Shown here piece by piece: positions 3,160 through 33,087 of a stretch of DNA of 35,710 bases; position 1 is the first letter of the stretch; every line of letters begins with the position of its first letter. Origin of the DNA: Pirellulaceae bacterium (GTDB lineage Bacteria; Planctomycetota; Planctomycetia; Pirellulales; Pirellulaceae); NCBI GenBank assembly GCA_011087765.1, contig JAALLA010000020.1, forward strand, positions 2,175-37,884, in the 5' to 3' direction. The notes beneath the pieces were generated by a model. That model saw only the letters and a list, made by a program, of their open reading frames with translations, searched no databases and had not been told where the DNA came from. Made by a program: the position numbers and the translations under genes.

Positions 3160-3636
3160 CTACTGGTCGTAGGTAATCTCAAGTACTTTAAACTGCAAAG
3201 TACCTTTCGGTACTTCGATGTCGGCTAATTCACCCACTTTTTTCCCCAACAAACCTCTTCCGATCGGGCTTGTGATCAAATATTTGCCCGCATCGTAGTC
3301 TTCATCTCCATCGCCAACGAGCGTAATTTCTTCCTCGTCATCGAGATCGACATCCAACACTTTCACGGTTGCACCGAACGCAACCTTGTCTTTAGGAATC
3401 TGGTTAGGATCAACAATTTGAGCGCGTGACAGACGAGATTTTAATTCGGAAATCTTGCGGTGTAGATGAGATTGATTTTCCCGTTGAGCGTGGTACTCAG
3501 CATTCTCTTTGAGATCGCCTTCAGCCCGGGCTTCCGCAATTTTCTCAGCAATTGCAGGCATCTGCACGTTTTCCATCTCGTCAATTTCAGCCTTACGCTT
3601 GTTGTAGGCTTCTTGTGTCATGGGTACGCGTTCCAC
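3160..3636 (-). CDS. greA: Transcription elongation factor GreA
   Basis: GreA of 158 residues, the usual family length. It enters the secondary channel of RNA polymerase and stimulates cleavage of backtracked transcripts. The N-terminal antiparallel coiled coil spans about residues 8-75 and carries the tip motif [14 protein letters not shown], with acidic residues D41 and E44 in place for the catalytic magnesium. The C-terminal half (about 80-158) is the FKBP-like polymerase-binding domain ([16 protein letters not shown]). The start is a GTG at 3636, supported by an AGGAG about 8 bases upstream; the in-frame ATG five codons later has no such signal. It stands alone between two long gaps, downstream of a terminator. 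Confidence 0.95.
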
Positions 3637-3648
3637 TTTGCTCTCTCC
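3637..3648 (-). promoter_or_regulatory. Shine-Dalgarno of greA supporting a GTG start
   Basis: Read on the minus strand this is GGAGAGAGCAAA directly before GTG. The GGAG core at good spacing selects the GTG at 3636 over the ATG at 3621. Confidence 0.6.
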
Positions 3649-3680
3649 TGCTCACTGCATCCAACTTGAAACTGTCAAAC

Positions 3681-3727
3681 TAAAAAAGATTACGACCTAT
3701 CTATCCGAAAGACAGGTCGCAATCTTT
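3681..3727 (-). terminator. Intrinsic terminator after the M50/HlyD gene
   Basis: The arms at 3714-3727 and 3685-3698 form a 14-base stem with one mismatch around a loop of 15 bases. On the minus strand the stem is followed by a run of six T. This is the classical rho-independent form. It lies about 165 bases downstream of the stop of the M50/HlyD gene and just upstream of greA, so it separates the two transcripts. Confidence 0.8.
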
Positions 3728-3890
3728 CCTGATTATGCAGCATTCTAACCAATTAAGCAACTAGCCGCGGAAACAGCCGATAGCAAACAGAAGCGTTTCT
3801 CGAAAATTCCGGGACCACAATCGAGCATTAATCCGCTCAACCACGCGATCGAATTCGAATTTAGAGTTCAAGCCTTGGGGAAACTTAACA

Positions 3891-6140
3891 CTACAATTCG
3901 AATTGGAAAGTTTCATTGAATAGGCGGACAATTCGTTGCCCAATCGTCTTAGAACCAACACGAACCTTGGCGCGACCGGTACTCCCAGAAATGATTATGC
4001 GTTCCGAATTGGCGAGCGGAACACTCACTCGATACTTGGTACTCACGGGAACCAGACGCCCCTCGCTATCGGATTCAACAACAATACTGCCACCATGTTT
4101 TCCAGATAGTGACGGAGGTAACTCAACAAGCTCACTAGGCGAAATTCGATCGGTCACAGAATGGAAGATGGTTCCCGGAATTTGATTCAAACACAACTCA
4201 ACTTTTTGCTGTTGTTGAATAAATTCGATTTCAGATTGGTCCACCACAAGAACAGCTTCCATTTTTTCCAAGTTCGGTACAACCTGTCCCACAAAGGTCC
4301 CGGATTTGAGATAGGCACCAAGATTCTTTCGATCCAGTGGTGTACCGTTCCAGAAACCAAGTCCCTCCTGACCATCATCTCGCTCCCGAACCCTCCGCGG
4401 AGCAATAAAATAACCAGAGATCGGCGCCCTTATCGACAACCTCTCTCGGTCCATTAGCTTCCGCTCATAACTTGCATTGGAAGCTCGAACCGCGACCTCG
4501 GCGGACTGCCGACCTTGAGAGAATGCGGCGTCCACTGCTTCTGATTGCCGTATATTTTCCAGGCGAACATAGGAGGAAGCAAGCTGCGTTTTCATTCCGG
4601 CCAATTGCACATCGAGCTGTTTGCTCGTCAATTCAATTATTCTTTCACCTTCCCGAACATAAACATTCGGCTGCACATCTACCTCGCTAAGCACCCCTTC
4701 GACATCGACATAGACATTTCTAGCGTTCTGAGGCTGAACGTAGAATTTACAGTGAACGTAATGCGGCAACGGCAATGCAAGGACACCGAGAACGAGAACT
4801 CCGCAGGCAATCACCGAAGCCGTTAAATTCACTCGTTTGACCACACCTAACCTCCCGGGAATTGCAAAGAAACGGATCAGTTTTACAACTGGAATACCAA
4901 CTAAACCATAGATCGCCGAGAGGGCAATCAACTGCCCAATTAATTTAAAACCATAGGGTTCAAGCAAGCGATAGACAAACCAGAAAATTGAAAACGTGAT
5001 CAACCATCGATACAAAGCGGCTGCGACACTGTAAACAGCAAAAAACCATTTCCTACGAGTCGGTAAAAATGGATCTGACCGTGTTTCCATCCCCAACAAC
5101 ACTGCCCCGCAGGCACGTTGCAAAATCGCACTTGCCTTGGCGCGAAGATTAGGAATTTCAGTTAAATCAGAAAGAACGTAATAGCCATCATATCGAAGCA
5201 AGGGATTCGCATTGAACAAGACCGTGCTTACCGAACAAATAAAAACAACATTTAACGCAAGCTGATTGACTAATCCAGGGTGACTGAACCACCAGACAAA
5301 CACCGCAATTGATGCCAACATGAATTCAACATAAATTCCAGCTGCCGCAATCATTGCCCGCTTCCATTTATTCGATAGCAGCCAGGAATCACTTACGTTG
5401 ACATAGAGACACGGGGTTAACACCAACAGCATCAAACCCATTTCATGGCATTCTCCCCCGTACCGCTTGCAAGCCAGCCCATGCCCAAATTCGTGGAGAA
5501 CTTTGGTAACAGCTAAAACCAAAGCTAACCAAATCCAATTACTTGAATCAAAAAAACTTGCGAACGTGGGCAATTTATTTTGAAACGTTTCGAACTGGGT
5601 AAAAACCAGAGTCATGGCAGCCAACCATAAAAGCAAGGTCGCAATCATCGCCGGCATTGAAAAAAACCAACCAAGGTATCCGTTTAGGTAACCTAACAAG
5701 CGATCAGGATCAAATCCCCGATAACGTATCGCCAACACATTGGTTAAAGATTGAAATCTCTCCTGCTTCCGATTTTCTCGACCGCGGTTTGACAGCTCAT
5801 GCCCTTGAAAGGGCGCACTTGAAATCAAAAGGGAGTTGCGGTGCAACATGCTAATAAATTGATAGATCTCCTGAACCGTGATCTTTTGCGGTGTGAAACG
5901 CGCATCGAACTCAGCCTTCACCGTTTCCACACTAGTTTGTCCATCCAGCAACTCAAAGAGCATGTACTCTTCTTCTTCGAAACGATAATACTGCATCGTT
6001 AATGGATCTTTGATGACAACACAATCACGACCTTGAAATTGCTGCCGCTGAACGGCAACGTCGTTGCGCGTATGCATCGACAACGGTCGGCCAGCGATCG
6101 TTGTAGCAGCAGGGTGATCTTTCCCGGGTCTCGGCAACAT
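3891..6140 (-). CDS. PqqD-like / M50 site-2 protease / HlyD adaptor fusion membrane protein
   Basis: Protein of 749 residues from the ATG at 6140; a TTG at 6155 would add five residues. Visible order: PqqD-like winged-helix domain, about 25-110; first membrane helices, about 150-215; HEFGH (216-220), the HExxH zinc motif of M50 intramembrane proteases; NPLLRYDG (312-319), which supplies the third zinc ligand (Asp); more membrane helices to about 470; then a HlyD/biotinyl-lipoyl-like periplasmic part (NVYVDVEGVLSEVDVQP, a helical hairpin, then SIRAPISGYF). In other systems PqqD-like domains bind leader peptides, M50 enzymes cut substrates in the membrane, and HlyD proteins bridge inner-membrane exporters to TolC. 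A role in processing or exporting secreted proteins is inferred. It lies 32 bases after the upstream exported gene, so the two are probably co-transcribed. All M50 metal ligands are present. Confidence 0.88.
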   Translation of the reverse strand: MLPRPGKDHPAATTIAGRPLSMHTRNDVAVQRQQFQGRDCVVIKDPLTMQYYRFEEEEYMLFELLDGQTSVETVKAEFDARFTPQKITVQEIYQFISMLHRNSLLISSAPFQGHELSNRGRENRKQERFQSLTNVLAIRYRGFDPDRLLGYLNGYLGWFFSMPAMIATLLLWLAAMTLVFTQFETFQNKLPTFASFFDSSNWIWLALVLAVTKVLHEFGHGLACKRYGGECHEMGLMLLVLTPCLYVNVSDSWLLSNKWKRAMIAAAGIYVEFMLASIAVFVWWFSHPGLVNQLALNVVFICSVSTVLFNANPLLRYDGYYVLSDLTEIPNLRAKASAILQRACGAVLLGMETRSDPFLPTRRKWFFAVYSVAAALYRWLITFSIFWFVYRLLEPYGFKLIGQLIALSAIYGLVGIPVVKLIRFFAIPGRLGVVKRVNLTASVIACGVLVLGVLALPLPHYVHCKFYVQPQNARNVYVDVEGVLSEVDVQPNVYVREGERIIELTSKQLDVQLAGMKTQLASSYVRLENIRQSEAVDAAFSQGRQSAEVAVRASNASYERKLMDRERLSIRAPISGYFIAPRRVRERDDGQEGLGFWNGTPLDRKNLGAYLKSGTFVGQVVPNLEKMEAVLVVDQSEIEFIQQQQKVELCLNQIPGTIFHSVTDRISPSELVELPPSLSGKHGGSIVVESDSEGRLVPVSTKYRVSVPLANSERIIISGSTGRAKVRVGSKTIGQRIVRLFNETFQFEL

Positions 6141-6172
6141 AAAATAGAATTCCAAATTCTATAGATTTAGCA

Positions 6173-6859
6173 CTATTGACTCTTAACGTGCGTATGCTTG
6201 GTTTCGAAACCGCTTTCCTTTAACCAGCTTTGCCATGCATGTGCCTGCGGCTCGTCAGCAAGTTCGATGGTCAGCCAGTCTGGACATGAAAAAGTAGCGT
6301 CCAGATGATTTCCGTGGCTTTTTGACGTTACTTCACAACCAATCATTCTGAGCGTATTAATAATCTTTTTAGCCTTAGCTTCGTCATGCAAATGGACTGT
6401 CCGAGACGTTGCCATTCGAAAACGAACAGTTGGCAACTTGGTTTCTGATGAGGGATTCAATAAGACTGTTTCCATACCCCGATCTTTGCACCAGCTGGAC
6501 CATTGCTCCACCAATTGCGAGTTCGATAATTTCATCGATCGCCAATTAACACAACGATAAATGACATCGATATGGTTATCGTGTTTTCGAGATTTGACCT
6601 CGCAGCCAATTTTCTCGAGAGTTGAAATTGACTGTTCCGCCTCTTCTGACGTACTCGAATGAAGCGTCTTCCATGCCTCCACTCGATACCCCATTTTCAT
6701 AGCGCTCGATTTAACGGGTTTTGCTGGCACCAGTGAATTCGTTGTATTTAAATCTGGGTGCTTAGCAACAGACTCTTGCGCAATTATTTCCTGGGCTGAT
6801 GAAATTGCCTCAAAGGAAAATCCCAAGATTGCAATCCCAACCAATAATAAAACTTTCAT
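6173..6859 (-). CDS. Exported protein with two copies of an unnamed Cys/His domain
   Basis: Protein of 228 residues. Residues 1-22 form a signal peptide (hydrophobic core LLLVGIAILGF). The rest holds two copies of a domain of about 75 residues, at roughly 58-132 and 146-221. Both copies share IGCEV, then H-x-N-H-x-D (KHDNHIDV; SHGNHLDA), then a Cys and Trp (YRCVNW; FSCPDW), and end W-x-SW...G-x-ET. Each copy therefore has two Cys plus two His and an Asp, suggesting a disulfide or a metal site. I do not recognise a characterised family; similar single copies may be common in planctomycetes, but this is memory only. The start has AAAGGG seven bases upstream. It is the first gene of a likely operon with the M50/HlyD fusion, so an accessory role in that envelope system is inferred. 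Confidence 0.8.
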   Translation of the reverse strand: MKVLLLVGIAILGFSFEAISSAQEIIAQESVAKHPDLNTTNSLVPAKPVKSSAMKMGYRVEAWKTLHSSTSEEAEQSISTLEKIGCEVKSRKHDNHIDVIYRCVNWRSMKLSNSQLVEQWSSWCKDRGMETVLLNPSSETKLPTVRFRMATSRTVHLHDEAKAKKIINTLRMIGCEVTSKSHGNHLDATFSCPDWLTIELADEPQAHAWQSWLKESGFETKHTHVKSQ

Positions 6860-7077
6860 TACGATACCCTTTGGAAACCAGCGAATTTAAAGAACCCCAT
6901 CGTTTAGAAAGACTTGATTAAGGAATCCGGAAGAAACCGACAAGATGACCACGCATGCTAGCATCCCGTGGCGGGGAAAGCCCTTCCATCACTGACCTTC
7001 AGCAGCAGGAACGACATTGTAAAAAAAAGCCAGATTGCTTAACCTCCGGCGTCACAAAATTATTTTTCTGCAATGCC

Positions 7078-8076
7078 ATGAATCTAACTCCATTGCCAAT
7101 CGTTTCCGTTATTGTTCCTGTTTACAACGAAATCGATAATGTCGATTTGATGTATCACGAACTGCTGGAAGCAATGCAATCCCAGCCACGCCCGTTCGAA
7201 ATTGTTCTTGTCGATGACGGTAGCGTCGACGGCACAACTGCTAAGCTCGAACAAGTGGCTGAAAAAGATGAGCGAGTCAAACTAGTGGTGTTTCGTCGAA
7301 ACTACGGACAAACCGCCGCCATGCACGCGGGAATCCAAAATGCCACAGGGGATTACCTGGTTACCATTGACGGCGATCTCCAAAATGACCCCAACGATAT
7401 CCCCATGATGTTGGACAAACTGGATGAGGGGTTCGATCTGGTACACGGGTGGCGAAAAGACCGCAAAGATAAGCTCTTAAGTAGAAAAATTCCTTCGAGA
7501 ATCGCAAACCGGTTAATTTCGAAGGTCACTGAATTCCCAATCCACGATCTTGGCTGCACGCTCAAAGCGATGCGCTCAGAAATTGCCCAGCAAATTGAAT
7601 TGTACGGCGAAATGCACCGTTTCATTCCCATTCTCGCACATCAGCTTGGAGCGAAGAGTGTCGAAGTCGTCACCAACCATCGGGCGCGACAATTCGGGGA
7701 AACTAAATATGGAATCGGGCGGACATTCCGCGTGGTTCTCGATTTAATCACCGTCAAATATATGTTGAAATACTTTTCCAGCCCGATGAAACTCTTTGGC
7801 AAACTTGGGCTTTGGATTGGCGGAGCTGGCATGTTGTCTTGTGTCACGGCTGTTTTGATGAAACTATTTTCTGGGGTCGACATGACCGGCAACCCATTTT
7901 TGCTGATGGGGATTTTGTCTGCAATTTTGAGTGTGCAGTTTTTCAGTCTCGGGCTGATTGGTGAAGTCTGTGCGAGAATCTATTACACCCACGAAAAGCG
8001 TACGAATTATCAGATTCGCAATCTCGTAAATTTCCCGCCTGCCGATATCATTTCACTTCCGCGAAAAGCTGCTTAA
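7078..8076 (+). CDS. Family 2 glycosyltransferase, polyprenyl-phosphate type
   Basis: GT-A fold glycosyltransferase of 332 residues like GtrB, ArnC and dolichol-phosphate mannosyltransferase, which move a sugar from a nucleotide to a polyprenyl phosphate at the inner face of the membrane. Visible motifs are VSVIVPVYNE (residues 9-18), VLVDDGSVDGT (43-53), NYGQTAAMHAGI, and the metal-binding DGD at 98-100 in TIDGDLQNDP. Two C-terminal membrane helices (about 236-264 and 271-298) match the GtrB type. The frame stays open upstream to an ATG at 6955, but those 41 residues are unlike the family, so the ATG at 7078 is chosen; it lacks a Shine-Dalgarno sequence. It is transcribed divergently from the gene at 6173-6859. 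The sugar and acceptor are unknown. Confidence 0.9.
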   Translation: MNLTPLPIVSVIVPVYNEIDNVDLMYHELLEAMQSQPRPFEIVLVDDGSVDGTTAKLEQVAEKDERVKLVVFRRNYGQTAAMHAGIQNATGDYLVTIDGDLQNDPNDIPMMLDKLDEGFDLVHGWRKDRKDKLLSRKIPSRIANRLISKVTEFPIHDLGCTLKAMRSEIAQQIELYGEMHRFIPILAHQLGAKSVEVVTNHRARQFGETKYGIGRTFRVVLDLITVKYMLKYFSSPMKLFGKLGLWIGGAGMLSCVTAVLMKLFSGVDMTGNPFLLMGILSAILSVQFFSLGLIGEVCARIYYTHEKRTNYQIRNLVNFPPADIISLPRKAA

Positions 8077-26559: not shown

Positions 26560-29500
26560 TTAATTAAAAAACCCATCAACTTCGTCCTGCTTCTTCTCAC
26601 CATTTTTAGAGGCATAGCTCTCGAGAACTGGAAGTGGATCGATCATCTGCCACGAGGGCAATTGGGCAAGTGCGAGTGCCATTAAAGCACTTCCCCTTAA
26701 AGTCCAGAACACATAACCGAGCGTACCGAGAGTTGTGAGCGCACCGACGGTCATTTTTATGTCCTCGAGGCTCGTCTCATAGCGGTCTGCCTCCTTCAAT
26801 TGATCAATGAGGTATTCGGTATTCATCGAAATGCCCATGATACTATTTAATTCAAGATTGCGAATTTCAGATTCTTCCACGACCATCTCGGAAGCAGGAT
26901 TTTGAAGCAGCATTCGCAAAACATCGGCCGCGCGATTCCGATCCGAAACAAGGCTGACGTACTCTTCAATTGGCTCGGGAACGAATTTAACAAAAGCCTC
27001 GCGATTGGACGCATCTTCTTCTTGCTGCAAAAACCGCCTCTCTCTTCTTGCCGCAATTGCATTGGTGATCCCGAGATACTCGTCGTTGTTTTCATCGGTT
27101 TCGTCAACCTGCCTTTCGACATTTGTCAACGGATTCACATTCCCCAGACCTGTAGCAGCTTTCACTAGGACACTAACCGTCGTAGCCTCACCATCCGCGA
27201 CTCCGTCGCTCGGAACGTAAGTAAAAGTATCAACCCCAAAGAAACCAGCATTCGGCACATAGACAAACGAACCATTTGGATTCAACAAAACCGTACCGTT
27301 GGCAGGGGGATCTACCAAAAGTGCCACAATCGAATTGCCCTCTACATCACGGTCGTTGGCGAGCACACTCTGGAATGAACTCAATACCCGCCCGGTCGTT
27401 ATGGAATATTCATCTAAGCCGCCCACAGGTGCATCATTCACCGGGTTAACTTGAATTTCAACTTCAGCAATGGAACTCGTTAAGCTGCCATCATCCAATT
27501 GATACGTAAACTTGTCACTCAAGGTCTCCGACCCATCGTGTAGGTAGACAAAGCTCCCATCCGAATTCAGCTCCACAGTGCCGTTCACAGGAGAATCCAC
27601 CAATCGAACGCTGATGTCGGAACTGTCCGAATCTGAGTCATTCCCGAGCAGTTTTTCATCATTCGCTGAAAAACTGGTGCCTTCATCAAGCGAGAAAAAA
27701 TCACCCTGTGCAACAGGAGCGTCATTCACCGGGCTAATCGAAATTACAAAAACTCCACCCGTTGCCACTCCTGCTCCATCGTCAACGAGAAATTCAAAAC
27801 TGTCTGAAAGCGACTCCGATCCGTCGTGCACATAACTGACTCGCGCTTGATTGAGGTCATCCTGAGTGAAAACACTGGCTGGGATACCTCCCACTTCCAG
27901 AGTTCCCTTTACGGGAGCATTGACTATGGAATAGACCAGGAGATCATCCGACTGTTCTTCATCGACGGCCCGCAGAAACGATGCGTCAATTACCGCTGCA
28001 CCACCCTCCGAGACAGGCAATGCTGAATTTACAATCAAATTTTGTTCGTCATTTAAGTTGTTGAGCTCGACCAATACGTTCGTAGAATCGGATAGTCCCT
28101 GACTATCAACCACCTCTACTAACAAATCTAACGAGGGTGCCAATTCGTAATTGAGGAGCGAATCATCCACAACCCTCACCTCGCCAGTCACCTCGTTTAC
28201 GTCCAGTATTCCAACTCCAGTTCCACCGATTACCTGATAATTCAACACATCATCGGCGTCGACATCAATTGCAGAAAGCACTCCAACCGTAGTTCCGTTA
28301 ATTGAATTTTCGTCAATTGAGAAATTCTGATTAGTAAATTCGGGAGTTTCGTTTAGATCGAGCAATGAAACCAAAATCATTTCGTCGACAAACAATCCTT
28401 GCAGGTCGGTACTGCGGACAACCACTTGGTACTGGGCCTTGGTTTCAAAATCCAGCACGGCACCTTGAATCAGCAATTCGTCGTTATTAGCCCCGCCAAT
28501 TGAGAAATACTCAGCATCGCCTCCGGTGACAACTGAATAGACAAATTGATCACCAAGATCCTCATCAACGCTAACCAACACTCCTAAACTTGCCCCGCCA
28601 GAGGTGTCTGTGTTTTCTGCAATCGACACAGCATTGAGATTAATTCCCGTCGGAGAATCATTTAAGTCTCGCACAGAAATGGAAATGGAATTGTCAAAAA
28701 ACGCGCCCGCTTGATCGGTGACTCTTAACACGAGGTCATAGCTCGACTGTCGTTCAAAGTCGAGAATTCCATCTTCTAATAATAATTGGTCTCCCAGAAC
28801 ACCGCCAATTCGAAACAGGTCTTGATCCCATCCCCCGATGACAGTGTAGACCAGGGCATCATCGAGATCGGGATCATTGCTTGATAACTGACCGACAATG
28901 TATGGCCCACCTGTGTTGATTGGGTCGGTGTCGGTGTTTTCGTCAATCGAAGAATTACTTAGAATCAGGTCGGTCGGACTGTCATTGACGGGAACCACTT
29001 GGATTTCCTGATTGACTATTCCCGAATCAAGTTCACCATCACTGACTTGAAAGCTGATCAACCTACTCGCCGGGTTGGGCGACTCACTAGTATTTTGATA
29101 AGTCACGCTTCGAAGTGCCAACTCGTAATTCTCAATGGTGTCCGTTCCTTGTAGCTGTAGCGTCCCGGAACTCGAGTCCCAAATTCCAAAAATCGTTGAT
29201 TGCCCGCCGTCGAAATAATCAAGCCGATCCTCTCCAGATTGATAATTAGTGGAAATGGAGATCGTCGCCGACTCTATCAGTTGGTCATCAACATCGGAAA
29301 TTACGATCGAATCCCACACGGCAACCATTCCGTCATTTTCATGGTAAACCAGAGGTTCACTGCCGCCAGAGTCAATCACGGGAGCATCGTTTACCGGAAC
29401 GACACCAAGCTGCATATTCTTTACCACCGTCTCGACATTGGCTTCATCAATCGCCCACGAGAAAACATTCGCCGTCAAAATATCATTCGGGGTTGCGACT

Positions 29501-32500
29501 GCCCCTCCCCCGGTAAGGTCTGAATAAAAAACCCCGGTATCACCGGTAAACAAAATCTTTCCTTCACCATGTGATCTCAAGACCATCGTCGGATTACCCG
29601 AATCTTGATCGACAGCCAGAACTTGATCACCCTCCTGCAAACTGGCGGCATCAAACGAGGCGGTGACTGCATAGGCCAAAAACGTGTCTAACACCTGACC
29701 AACTGAACCGAACGCTCCATTCATAATCGGGTTATCATCATCACTAATTACCCACGTCGTTCCCGCATCTAAGGTCGTTAGTCCATAATATTCATTGAGG
29801 GCATCCGTAGACGCTTGCTCACCGGTCGAAATCAGCACACCGCCATTGAGTACCCACTGATCAATCGCATTGAGCTCTTCAGTGGTCAGCCGTCCATCGT
29901 CAATTGCGCCACCGAAATATATCTCCCCTTGTGATAGATATTCTGCATCGATCGTATAACTCGGACCACCAATAACGATCGAAGAAGAAACAACGCCGCC
30001 CGGACCAAAATTCGCGGATTCCGTTAAAATTGCTTCGGCTTTTGAAAAGAAGTTACTTCCAAGACTTCGGTAGCCCGGTTCACCGGCCAGAACATTAACC
30101 GACAAGCTGCCGTTGTTAACATAGAACTCAAATGAGCCATACAATCCATTACTGGCATCCGGCTCGGGAAGAAACTGAAGCAGTCCAGCATCAATCTGGT
30201 TCTTAGAAACAACATCGCCGTTTTCCAGTGGTGTTCCATTAAGCACTAAATCACCATCTAAAGGCAACGATGTGATTGTGATTGTGTCAATCATATTTCC
30301 TAAGAAACCGGTAAAATCAAAATCACTGGACGAAAACACATAAGGCGTGTCTTCGGGGGTAGAAACGTACCCCTCATTTTGATCGGTTACAAAAACATTT
30401 ATCGCGCCATAGCTGGTATCGACACCACCGTTAGCAACTCCATCGCTGTCACTCAACTCAAACTCAACAACTCGCACCCCAAACTCAGAGCTTGTTGTTG
30501 CAAACGAAATGTTGTGGATCAACAAGGCCACATTTTCAGTCGTTGCCCCTGAACTAAACTGAATAGCAATTGAAGATGAATTAACGTTGGTCAGCGCACC
30601 CACGGAAACTCCCTGGACACTAATCAGGGAACCGACTTCTAAACCGTTGGATAAACTTACATCGGAAATCTCAAGGATTCCGATTTCGTCTTCGGCGGCA
30701 AAACTGAGCCCTTCGATTAGTAAGCTACCGCCATTGAAATTGGTAATCAGATCTGGATCATAAATCGAGACAGCTACACTTGCATCTAATACACGAGCTT
30801 CGCCATCGTTAAGCGAAACAAGTGAATCACCAGAAAAATAATTCATTGCGGGCGCATCATTCGCAGCCATCACCGCGACGCTTCGCGCCTGCGTATTTGA
30901 AATCGATTCGCTATCAAAAACAGTAAATTCCACCGTCCGAGCATCCTCATTCGGACTTTCACTGATATTTCGATAATCGATTTCCCGCAAAGCTGTCTGA
31001 TAGTTTTCAACGGTGTCGGTACCGCTCAAAGTCAAGATTCCAGCGACGCTATCCCATAATCCGGAAATCTCGCCAAACCCTGTAAACATTAGCACGTCAG
31101 CATTCGGCGAATAATTGTTTACAATCGCTACCGTTGCGGAATGCAGATGCTCGTTATCAACATCAGTGAGTGTAATCGTTGAACTGACCGACACCCTCTG
31201 AAACCCCTCAACAAACTCCACCGGTGCGGTTTCTATGCCAGAAATGACCGGCACATCATTGACCGGCAAAATGGTTTGGGAGACGGATTCACTCGCAACA
31301 CTAAACGGACTCAAGCCACCGGTTTCAGCAACACTGACGCCAAACGTCCCGCTGAGCTTTCCGTCCGTTTGATCCCACGCATGAAATACTAAACCTCCAG
31401 ACGGACCGAAATAATCGGGCGAGGGAACAAATCGAACCAAAGCGTTCGCATCTAAAACCACAGCGCTTGCAGCAGACACATCCTCGAAATTGACCCAACC
31501 ATTCCCAACTTCAAACTGCCACCTACCGTTCGTCCGATCTGTGGCAACGACTGCGATGCCCTCGACGGCACCCGCATCGATGTCCGTAATTCTGTCACCA
31601 CCCGCTGAGGCAATTATTTCTGCAACAGACGATCCTGCGGGATCAAGCGCATCCTCAAAAACCTCAGGTAAAAACATATCACCGGCATCGTCCAAAACCG
31701 GGGCGTTGTTATTGGGCGTATAGTCGATCTCCAGAGTCGGAGCAGTTCCACTCTCGGAGCTGTGAAAGGTAACTGTGCCGTTCCCAGGCAACGAACTACC
31801 AAGCAAAATCCCCTGATTTGCTCTCGCTCCGGTTAGCCAATCATCCAACAGTTGTGTCACGTCCCAGCTATAGAACAAACCCGGATCTGAATATGCAATC
31901 GCCTCGGCATCGTAATCCGCACCGGCCGAATCCCAAACTACTCCGTTGGTTCGTTGATTCCACGTCGCCCCTGTACCGCCAGCATCTAACTCCCAGGGAT
32001 TGACCACGGAAAACAACTCAATCCCGAAGTTATCCAAGGACTCGACACTCTGCAACAACAAAGACGCCGAATTAATGGTTACGTTGTTCGGGATAGTTCC
32101 CAAATCAAATTCAATCAAAGATCGAACATTTCCGTCACCTCCTCCGGTTTTGGATACTTGCAGGGTTGTTGCCGAACCAAGCGGGCTATCAGGAGACGCC
32201 TGGGCAATGTACGTGTCTTTATTGCTGGTGATTTGGAGGCTCTCCAGCGTGTGCGCCCACGCTTTTTGAGTCTGTGCGGTAAAAACTATCTGGCTGTCAA
32301 TTTGTCCCGTTCTATATTCAAGCGTCCAATCTCCCCCCAATTCTCGAAATCCTGTAAGGTCGTTACTGGCCCCAATATCTCGATTGGTGATTTCCCCAAG
32401 TCGGTCAACAAAAGCTTTACCCTCGATACTTTCAGCTAAGTCACATCCATAAAGTAAAACATCTCCTCCGAATGCCAGCCCAGTAGTCCAACTGGAGAGA

Positions 32501-33087
32501 TGACTTTCATATTCACTTAAATTTTTGGCGTTGACCGAACTGTTCCCCAATTGAAGCTGGCCATCGCTACCATGAGATATAACGTGGATTGCGTCGTAGT
32601 GTTCTCGCCCATCGAGAAATTCCGTGATCTGTTCAATTCCATCCGCATCTTTGGCTAAGATCGCAATATCGAAATCGATGTTGCCCGAAGTCTGCGTTTG
32701 GATATCATCGACGAGAGAATCAACATCTCCAACATGACCATCGATAACGACCAGCTGTCTAGCATTCGATGGCTTCGTAACCGTATCGATTGGGTCGTTT
32801 GAAAACTCGTCAAATGACTCAATCACTGTAGAAATAAAATCACTTTCAAACCCAGCTATGGGAGTGACGTCAAGAGCGATCGCATTATCATCCTCGTCTG
32901 AAGTCACCGACTCTAAAATTTCCTGCGCGCATGCAACCAGTGGCGAAGCATCGTACAGAATTCGGTCCTCGAGCACGACGAGTTCAACGTTTGAAACTAA
33001 AGGAGAGGATGCTCCCGCAGGCCGTATTGGCATGGATGGCATGGCGTCAACCGTTAAATGAAAATCACTGTGAGCCTTAGCGGTCAT
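26560..33087 (-). CDS. Giant LEPR-XLL/DUF4347/cadherin-repeat surface protein
   Basis: Protein of 2175 residues. Order: N-terminal LEDRILYDASPL at 39-50, a LEPR-XLL-type motif common on giant planctomycete proteins; DUF4347 domain about 108-282, with HVISHG (His172) and LLYGCDLAE (Cys215); DNRLRE-type beta domain about 285-458 (WNQRTNGVVWDSAG); cadherin-like and tandem-95 repeats with NDAP-type junctions; a repeat pair sharing GTDT-ENY--ALR near 690 and 1320; an alpha/beta insert at about 1005-1225; three cadherin domains; CSPG/VCBS-like repeats (VYLHDGSETLSDKFTYQLDDG) to about 1980; then a charged region and a C-terminal hydrophobic segment ending QLPSWQMIDPLPVLES. Acidic D-rich loops suggest calcium binding. 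No classical signal peptide is seen. It is divergent from the TolC-family gene. Cell-surface location is inferred. Confidence 0.9.
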   Translation of the reverse strand: MTAKAHSDFHLTVDAMPSMPIRPAGASSPLVSNVELVVLEDRILYDASPLVACAQEILESVTSDEDDNAIALDVTPIAGFESDFISTVIESFDEFSNDPIDTVTKPSNARQLVVIDGHVGDVDSLVDDIQTQTSGNIDFDIAILAKDADGIEQITEFLDGREHYDAIHVISHGSDGQLQLGNSSVNAKNLSEYESHLSSWTTGLAFGGDVLLYGCDLAESIEGKAFVDRLGEITNRDIGASNDLTGFRELGGDWTLEYRTGQIDSQIVFTAQTQKAWAHTLESLQITSNKDTYIAQASPDSPLGSATTLQVSKTGGGDGNVRSLIEFDLGTIPNNVTINSASLLLQSVESLDNFGIELFSVVNPWELDAGGTGATWNQRTNGVVWDSAGADYDAEAIAYSDPGLFYSWDVTQLLDDWLTGARANQGILLGSSLPGNGTVTFHSSESGTAPTLEIDYTPNNNAPVLDDAGDMFLPEVFEDALDPAGSSVAEIIASAGGDRITDIDAGAVEGIAVVATDRTNGRWQFEVGNGWVNFEDVSAASAVVLDANALVRFVPSPDYFGPSGGLVFHAWDQTDGKLSGTFGVSVAETGGLSPFSVASESVSQTILPVNDVPVISGIETAPVEFVEGFQRVSVSSTITLTDVDNEHLHSATVAIVNNYSPNADVLMFTGFGEISGLWDSVAGILTLSGTDTVENYQTALREIDYRNISESPNEDARTVEFTVFDSESISNTQARSVAVMAANDAPAMNYFSGDSLVSLNDGEARVLDASVAVSIYDPDLITNFNGGSLLIEGLSFAAEDEIGILEISDVSLSNGLEVGSLISVQGVSVGALTNVNSSSIAIQFSSGATTENVALLIHNISFATTSSEFGVRVVEFELSDSDGVANGGVDTSYGAINVFVTDQNEGYVSTPEDTPYVFSSSDFDFTGFLGNMIDTITITSLPLDGDLVLNGTPLENGDVVSKNQIDAGLLQFLPEPDASNGLYGSFEFYVNNGSLSVNVLAGEPGYRSLGSNFFSKAEAILTESANFGPGGVVSSSIVIGGPSYTIDAEYLSQGEIYFGGAIDDGRLTTEELNAIDQWVLNGGVLISTGEQASTDALNEYYGLTTLDAGTTWVISDDDNPIMNGAFGSVGQVLDTFLAYAVTASFDAASLQEGDQVLAVDQDSGNPTMVLRSHGEGKILFTGDTGVFYSDLTGGGAVATPNDILTANVFSWAIDEANVETVVKNMQLGVVPVNDAPVIDSGGSEPLVYHENDGMVAVWDSIVISDVDDQLIESATISISTNYQSGEDRLDYFDGGQSTIFGIWDSSSGTLQLQGTDTIENYELALRSVTYQNTSESPNPASRLISFQVSDGELDSGIVNQEIQVVPVNDSPTDLILSNSSIDENTDTDPINTGGPYIVGQLSSNDPDLDDALVYTVIGGWDQDLFRIGGVLGDQLLLEDGILDFERQSSYDLVLRVTDQAGAFFDNSISISVRDLNDSPTGINLNAVSIAENTDTSGGASLGVLVSVDEDLGDQFVYSVVTGGDAEYFSIGGANNDELLIQGAVLDFETKAQYQVVVRSTDLQGLFVDEMILVSLLDLNETPEFTNQNFSIDENSINGTTVGVLSAIDVDADDVLNYQVIGGTGVGILDVNEVTGEVRVVDDSLLNYELAPSLDLLVEVVDSQGLSDSTNVLVELNNLNDEQNLIVNSALPVSEGGAAVIDASFLRAVDEEQSDDLLVYSIVNAPVKGTLEVGGIPASVFTQDDLNQARVSYVHDGSESLSDSFEFLVDDGAGVATGGVFVISISPVNDAPVAQGDFFSLDEGTSFSANDEKLLGNDSDSDSSDISVRLVDSPVNGTVELNSDGSFVYLHDGSETLSDKFTYQLDDGSLTSSIAEVEIQVNPVNDAPVGGLDEYSITTGRVLSSFQSVLANDRDVEGNSIVALLVDPPANGTVLLNPNGSFVYVPNAGFFGVDTFTYVPSDGVADGEATTVSVLVKAATGLGNVNPLTNVERQVDETDENNDEYLGITNAIAARRERRFLQQEEDASNREAFVKFVPEPIEEYVSLVSDRNRAADVLRMLLQNPASEMVVEESEIRNLELNSIMGISMNTEYLIDQLKEADRYETSLEDIKMTVGALTTLGTLGYVFWTLRGSALMALALAQLPSWQMIDPLPVLESYASKNGEKKQDEVDGFFN

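Follow-up and report, generated by a model that had tools for sequence, protein, structure and literature searches.

CzcE, CopK and CopM are periplasmic metal-binding proteins of efflux operons. CnrX-type periplasmic metal sensors are helical. The HMA domain binds metal, has a ferredoxin-like topology and is often repeated. CusF is a small all-beta, OB-like barrel that uses Met, His and Trp. CusF and SilF, the Cu(I)/Ag(I) chaperones of CusCBA and SilCBA, are small periplasmic proteins encoded beside an HME-RND pump. According to an excerpt of PMC8277102, CusF is a nonessential chaperone for metal ions, and Cu+ passes from it via CusB to CusA. Planctomycetes carry several heavy-metal pumps per genome, and our searches of the open-licence literature found no described periplasmic chaperone for these pumps. 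Our analysis revealed a new, previously undescribed Cys/His family of small secreted planctomycete proteins with one or two domains. It is a concrete candidate for such a chaperone, offering a predicted four-residue site, a candidate disulfide and many loci that can be compared.

The window analyzed is a stretch of 35,710 nucleotides from a Pirellulaceae bacterium. The two-copy Cys/His protein is encoded on its minus strand at 6173..6859, as a 228-residue reading frame from an ATG, and the gene is single copy in this genome. Residues 1-22 (6794..6859, minus strand) resemble a signal peptide, with Met-Lys followed by a hydrophobic run (12-residue averages of 2.5-3.0). Domain copy 1 (residues 56-134; 6458..6694, minus strand) contains H67, C86, H93, H96, D98 and C103. 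Domain copy 2 (residues 145-224; 6188..6427, minus strand) contains H156, C175, H182, H185, D187, C192, H222 and H224. These boundaries are from HMM envelopes in L001, transferred to window coordinates, and from an AlphaFold2 model. The copies align without gaps, with 36% identity across 74 residues. Their Smith-Waterman score is 166, and none of 10000 shuffles scored as high (mean 27, sd 5, maximum 62). Copy 2 ends in H-x-H, which copy 1 lacks, and copy 1 has an additional Cys (WC) absent from copy 2. The original prediction, an exported protein with two copies of a constrained domain, holds in most respects. The signal-like N-terminus is consistent with export, and the motifs listed in the original prediction (IGCEV, H-x-N-H-x-D, a second Cys before Trp, and W-x-SW...G-x-ET) are all in register in both copies. 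The length of about 75 residues needs correction, as the repeat is nearer 80.

AlphaFold2 returned confident models for window domain 2 (pLDDT 93.6, 62 sequences) and for the two-domain protein (pLDDT 93.1, 50 sequences). The predicted topology is beta-alpha-beta-beta-alpha-beta (E-H-E-E-H-E) with two helices. Strands in the domain model comprise residues 2-14, 33-38, 43-55 and 76-79, the model number being the domain number plus one. H39 and H42 (model numbering) lie at the ends of a hairpin made by strands 33-38 and 43-55, and C32 is therefore expected opposite C49. Strands 2-14 and 43-55 are equally long, so that H13 is expected opposite D44. Three His and one Asp (H12, H38, H41 and D43 in domain numbering, which is used below) would thereby share one end of the sheet, with the two Cys (C31 and C48) at the opposite end. 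We deduce this placement from where the strands begin and end and from the order of strands typical of ferredoxin-like folds, not from measured distances. Each domain of about 80 residues may be a ferredoxin-like unit, one end of which holds a probable H3D metal site. The four polar residues are all intact in 164 of 172 domains, in line with the constraint proposed earlier. Among five near-complete domains without H12, three also miss the HxxH loop (p 5e-5, a value that ignores kinship). The sequences with these joint losses are partly related and perhaps represent about two events. For this and the other co-loss table, rows with more than 20 gaps were removed, which left 171 of the 172 domains.

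Comparisons with known folds and families gave no close match. Foldseek with one domain found only generic ferredoxin-like matches, including SPOR and ACT, at E values of 0.06 or worse. CutA folds were likewise among the weak structural matches of the domain. The two-domain model matched pairs of ACT domains or designed ferredoxins, with E values of about 1e-4 and TM scores of about 0.2. VIA gave Z scores of at most 4.7 and nothing at Z of at least 5, which leaves relatives possible. Searches of Pfam, NCBIfam and PDB profiles with the whole protein, 26 aligned members and their profile returned matches at chance level only, and neither SPOR nor ACT was matched by Pfam in the window protein or the 26 members. 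Assignment to a known fold family was rejected on the generic Foldseek folds and the best PDB profile E value of 0.06.

The systems introduced above differ from the family in defined ways. The family resembles CusF and SilF in small size, a predicted periplasmic location and genes that often neighbor an HME-RND pump. However, the Cys/His domain is predicted to be a mixed fold with an H3D set, and the ATPase nearby is of the P1B-4 type; membership was rejected on the two helices of the confidently predicted E-H-E-E-H-E topology. Like CzcE, CopK and CopM, the proteins are small and apparently secreted and accessory to metal efflux, but no sequence relation to these was found in Pfam, NCBIfam or PDB. 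A predicted ferredoxin-like topology, probable metal binding and repetition are shared with HMA. Unlike HMA, the Cys/His domain is predicted to be exported, has no CxxC loop, uses other residues and has no Pfam match; in Pfam, neither the window protein (searched to E 1) nor any of the 26 members (to E 0.1) hit an HMA model. HMA membership was rejected, since a His (H12) and no Cys stands where strand 1 ends.

The family is found in planctomycetes. The protein query matched 25 of 99 genomes in the set of relatives. The 26-row domain profile matched 115 of the 241 genomes in the window bacterium's family, 53 of 397 in the class and 8 of 392 in the phylum, all eight inside the class. Each of these four counts includes the window's own genome. 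A GTDB contig scan with a narrower alignment, which detects close relatives only, returned 36 loci, every one with a planctomycete title (Rhodopirellula, Rubripirellula, Stieleria, Roseiconus, Alienimonas and MAGs). Searches of viral contigs and plasmids found no relative of the repeat protein, and a phage or plasmid origin was rejected. The profile search confirmed the existence of single-domain relatives, which the original prediction had proposed to look for. Their reading frames are mostly 103-135 residues long, and the other members have two domains. Literature searches in open-licence PMC, judged by titles and the beginnings of abstracts, yielded nothing on the Cys/His family or on planctomycete M50/HlyD fusions; excerpts of the planctomycete genome paper PMC11588811 were checked as well.

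Gene neighborhoods indicated an association of the two-domain form with heavy-metal pumps. We scanned 116 loci: 36 named loci, not selected for length, and 80 regions fetched with up to 8 kb on each side, picked among the matches listed with long reading frames favored. They contain 101 distinct family reading frames, 49 with two domains and 52 with one. A CusA/CzcA-type heavy-metal RND pump lies directly upstream on the same strand (within 1.5 kb) of 40 of the 49 two-domain frames, compared to 11 of the 52 single-domain frames. The pump ends 181-993 nt upstream of the family members linked to it. About 0.03 of the 49 would be expected by chance, given 143 pump matches in 25 genomes totaling about 199 Mb. 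In the scan of named genomes alone, which was not length-picked, the pump is directly upstream of four of nine distinct two-domain frames. Clustering of neighbors at the 36 named loci separated two settings. In the first, single-domain genes adjoin lysS, often with lolC/E and lolD, in a housekeeping stretch; overall, 41 of the 52 single-domain frames have no pump beside them and 17 have lysS as a neighbor. In the second, the genes lie directly 3' of a TIGR00914 pump, together with an adaptor, an outer-membrane channel and a heavy-metal P-type ATPase. At L194 (7047-8240), two adjoining two-domain genes, four tandem domains in all, stand behind a single heavy-metal pump.

The linked transporters give some clues to the metal; the residues of the pump itself singled out no particular one. 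An example pump reaches 846 bits with the TIGR00914 model, for which the cut-off is 701, and the best PDB relatives of the pump are CusA and ZneA. Linked pumps carry the motifs GELVDDAIVD[VI]EN (61 of 61) and HLISHM (58 of 61). By alignment, HLISHM falls in a loop near M672 of CusA. The GELVDDAIVDVEN motif occurs in most heavy-metal RND pumps found in the window's genus (L225, L232-L260), both with and without the domain protein. GELVDDAIVD[VI]EN is also found in pumps without the domain, and is thus not a marker of the association. A P1B ATPase is present on the same strand at 28 of the 49 two-domain frames, with SPC in all 28 and HEGST in 26. In an excerpt of PMC8880997, SPC together with HEGST are given as P1B-4 motifs. 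A nearby ATPase of the P1B-4 type suggests Zn, Co or other divalent ions.

We consider it probable that the repeat protein binds metal in the periplasm, as an accessory to heavy-metal efflux that the window's lineage has come to re-use alongside an M50/HlyD exporter. Across many planctomycetes, the two-domain form accompanies the CusA/CzcA-type pump, its adaptor, the outer-membrane channel and the P1B-4-type ATPase. We infer that it may catch ions released into the periplasm, and either hand them to the pump or buffer them for it, a task like that of CusF for CusA but with another fold. The single-domain frames away from pumps and the share of four in nine among the named genomes count against this reading.

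Nine two-domain frames have no pump upstream. One (L104) is linked to the M50 fusion, and at another (L150) the contig ends just upstream. L168 has an outer-membrane efflux protein upstream, and the pump of L115 is further downstream. At L111 (1716-8531), the frame is preceded by a MacB-type ABC exporter and its HlyD adaptor, so that exporters bearing HlyD recur beside the Cys/His family; L108 has the same neighbor clusters, and L107 is also among the nine. At the remaining two, L181 and L185, the two-domain gene is followed on the same strand by genes for an ECF sigma factor and a zf-HC2 anti-sigma-like protein. Families were scanned at L181, and L185 agrees with it in gene order and protein lengths. 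At both (L181:7566-9341 and L185:6866-8633) the zf-HC2 gene overlaps the sigma factor gene by 4 nt, and the order resembles that of metal-responsive sigma/anti-sigma systems. The domain could accordingly be a periplasmic metal sensor that regulates expression, as CnrX does in CnrYXH, or a step of the M50 protease. Like CnrX, the family is probably periplasmic, occurs near metal pumps and, at these two loci, adjoins sigma and anti-sigma-like genes. In the tree, the group neighboring the window clade (92/85) is made up of these two proteins and those of L168 and L190. However, the arrangement was seen at two loci, both from a single genus (g335), the window gene has no sigma or anti-sigma neighbor, and the mixed alpha/beta domain differs from the helical CnrX. 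A sensor function is therefore possible but unlikely.

The efflux-accessory reading must also account for the position of the window gene, which is not beside a pump; the only full-length pump over the cut-off in its genome is on a different contig. The neighbor is a fusion gene at 3891..6140 on the minus strand, with a PqqD-like N-terminus, an M50 core (HEFGH, NPLLRYDG) and an HlyD adaptor. The gap between the two genes (6141..6172, minus strand) is 32 bases, exactly as first reported, when counted from the fusion ATG at 6140-6138; it is 17 from a TTG at 6155. The fusion matches PF02163 (E 1.4e-8) and, below the cut-offs, HlyD_3 (E 1.1e-3) and TIGR03859 PqqD (E 6.6e-4). Its PqqD/M50 part matches NF041824 daptide_HExxH (E 9.4e-53), a likeness of this neighbor only to daptide/YydH-type M50 maturation proteases. 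However, the match of 180 bits is below the curated cut-off of 300, and the fusion is joined to HlyD. Two full-length paralogues of the fusion (3891-6155 when counted from the TTG) exist in the same genome, with 38% and 26% identity, and genomes of the genus have up to seven fusion matches each. The repeat gene and the fusion are likely on one transcript; no promoter-like match was found on the minus strand in 3600-7200. On the other side of the repeat gene is a divergent glycosyltransferase 2 gene (6955..8076, plus strand; PF00535, E 3.8e-35). The glycosyltransferase is an old neighbor of the fusion, and the repeat gene sits between them.

Comparison within the genus bears on the history of this arrangement. 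The repeat gene is present in 12 of 28 genomes, and in 11 of the 12, all in one subclade, it adjoins the fusion (11 of 28 overall). Orthologues of the repeat protein are 73-89% identical in seven genomes of the genus and 48-57% identical in three more. In the twelfth genome, G025, the repeat gene is between a heavy-metal pump and the ATPase (L190), and its fusion (L130) has the glycosyltransferase alongside and no repeat gene. Most genomes without the repeat gene still carry a fusion orthologue. Among 24 further fusion loci in the genus, 13 lack the repeat gene, 10 have it and one (G004) is cut by a contig end. At the 13, the glycosyltransferase is divergent at the 5' side of the fusion with nothing between in seven, on the other side in three and not within the fetched stretch in three. 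Fusions are at least 58% identical to that of the window in genomes with the repeat gene and at most 55% in those without; the G004 fusion is 60% identical. This split fits one gain or one loss of the repeat gene. Fusions with and without the repeat gene differ by few fixed changes, none convincing as a metal ligand.

Phylogenetic analysis suggested that the duplication preceded this event. In a tree of 60 two-domain proteins, whose bootstrap values were not fully settled, the 12 M50-linked rows form one clade (100/99); two of the rows (L104 and L009) are identical and probably from one genome. This clade groups with the pump-linked protein of G025 and three others (99/97). The domain tree used 91 of the 172 domains and 80 columns, after exclusion of rows with over 20 gaps and of near-copies (identity above 85% under the same label). 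In it, domains 1 and 2 of the window clade group with domains 1 and 2, respectively, of other two-domain proteins, with two and three label changes. The domain duplication is thus probably older than the relocation beside the fusion. In the window's genus, a two-domain copy would have come between the glycosyltransferase and the fusion.

Within this subclade the link to the M50/HlyD fusion in the original prediction stands, but it does not extend to the family as a whole: fusion adjacency was seen for none of the 100 other distinct family frames examined outside the subclade. The repeat protein was rejected as a general M50/HlyD partner, given the 13 of 24 fusion loci without it and the family members elsewhere without a fusion. 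The domain could still be a substrate-recognition or peptide-binding module of the exporter, with His and Asp in structural roles. The repeat gene has been kept beside the fusion in 11 genomes, down to about 50% identity, and the ferredoxin-like fold is common to the SPOR and ACT ligand-binding domains, both of which are among the generic Foldseek matches. However, 13 genomes of the genus with data have a fusion orthologue (about 50-55% identity) lacking the repeat gene alongside, and the relatives that neighbor metal pumps, at which no M50 fusion was detected, conserve the same His and Asp residues. We regard this explanation as improbable, and favor the efflux accessory.

Retention of the repeat gene beside the fusion while both proteins diverged argues that the window copy probably now serves the exporter-protease, or reports metal status to it. 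The captured accessory and the PqqD-M50-HlyD fusion might even constitute a metal-gated or metal-supplied intramembrane protease/exporter, which is a speculative proposal with a low probability of being correct. In that case, the pair of H3D domains would supply metal to, or sense it for, an apparatus for trimming a substrate and exporting it via the HlyD adaptor. The position of the repeat gene in this one lineage provides a first handle on the role of the abundant M50/HlyD fusions. Pumps work without the repeat protein alongside, in keeping with the nonessential status given to CusF (PMC8277102), and the window copy could act in trans. Genus genomes without the repeat gene contain seven pumps with 67-76% identity to that of G025, and none of the seven has such a protein within 1.5 kb, which indicates that the pump does not require it. 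Nine of the 11 M50-linked genomes have another kind of pump, about 51-53% identical to the pump-linked ones and without the repeat protein beside it; in G013 and G019, respectively, a pump at 47% and none were found.

The Cys residues are less conserved than the polar set. C31 is present in 159 of 172 domains and C48 in 125. C48 is also missing in 12 of the 13 domains without C31 (Fisher p 5e-7, a value that ignores kinship). This co-loss, and the facing positions of C31 and C48 in the model, suggest a disulfide more than a Cys metal site; it would be a cross-strand disulfide at the end of the domain away from the H3D set. Both roles put forward at first, metal binding and a disulfide, are candidates that the residue pattern and the model support. 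The paired Cys would also fit a disulfide-stabilized periplasmic structural unit without a ligand, but this is the least likely explanation, as 34 of 171 near-complete domains have lost C48 but not C31, while H12, H38, H41 and D43 mostly remain, so the polar residues are constrained more strongly than the disulfide. Many pump-linked first domains have Ser at C48 and Cys at position 4, indicating that Cys chemistry varies across the family.

A further feature, consistent with a metal-binding efflux accessory, is found outside the domains. His-rich stretches, defined as at least five His per 20 residues, occur in 35 of 40 pump-linked two-domain proteins, in five of nine other two-domain proteins, in none of 52 single-domain proteins and in none of 11 window-clade proteins. 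All 11 of the latter have at most one His per 20 residues. The window copy keeps both predicted core sites, and its lack of a His-rich stretch counts against the accessory reading. Elsewhere in the window, 26560-33087 encodes a 2175-residue protein with DUF4347, CBM96, cadherin and bacterial Ig domains, which has GGDEF/HD and response-regulator/HD genes as neighbors.
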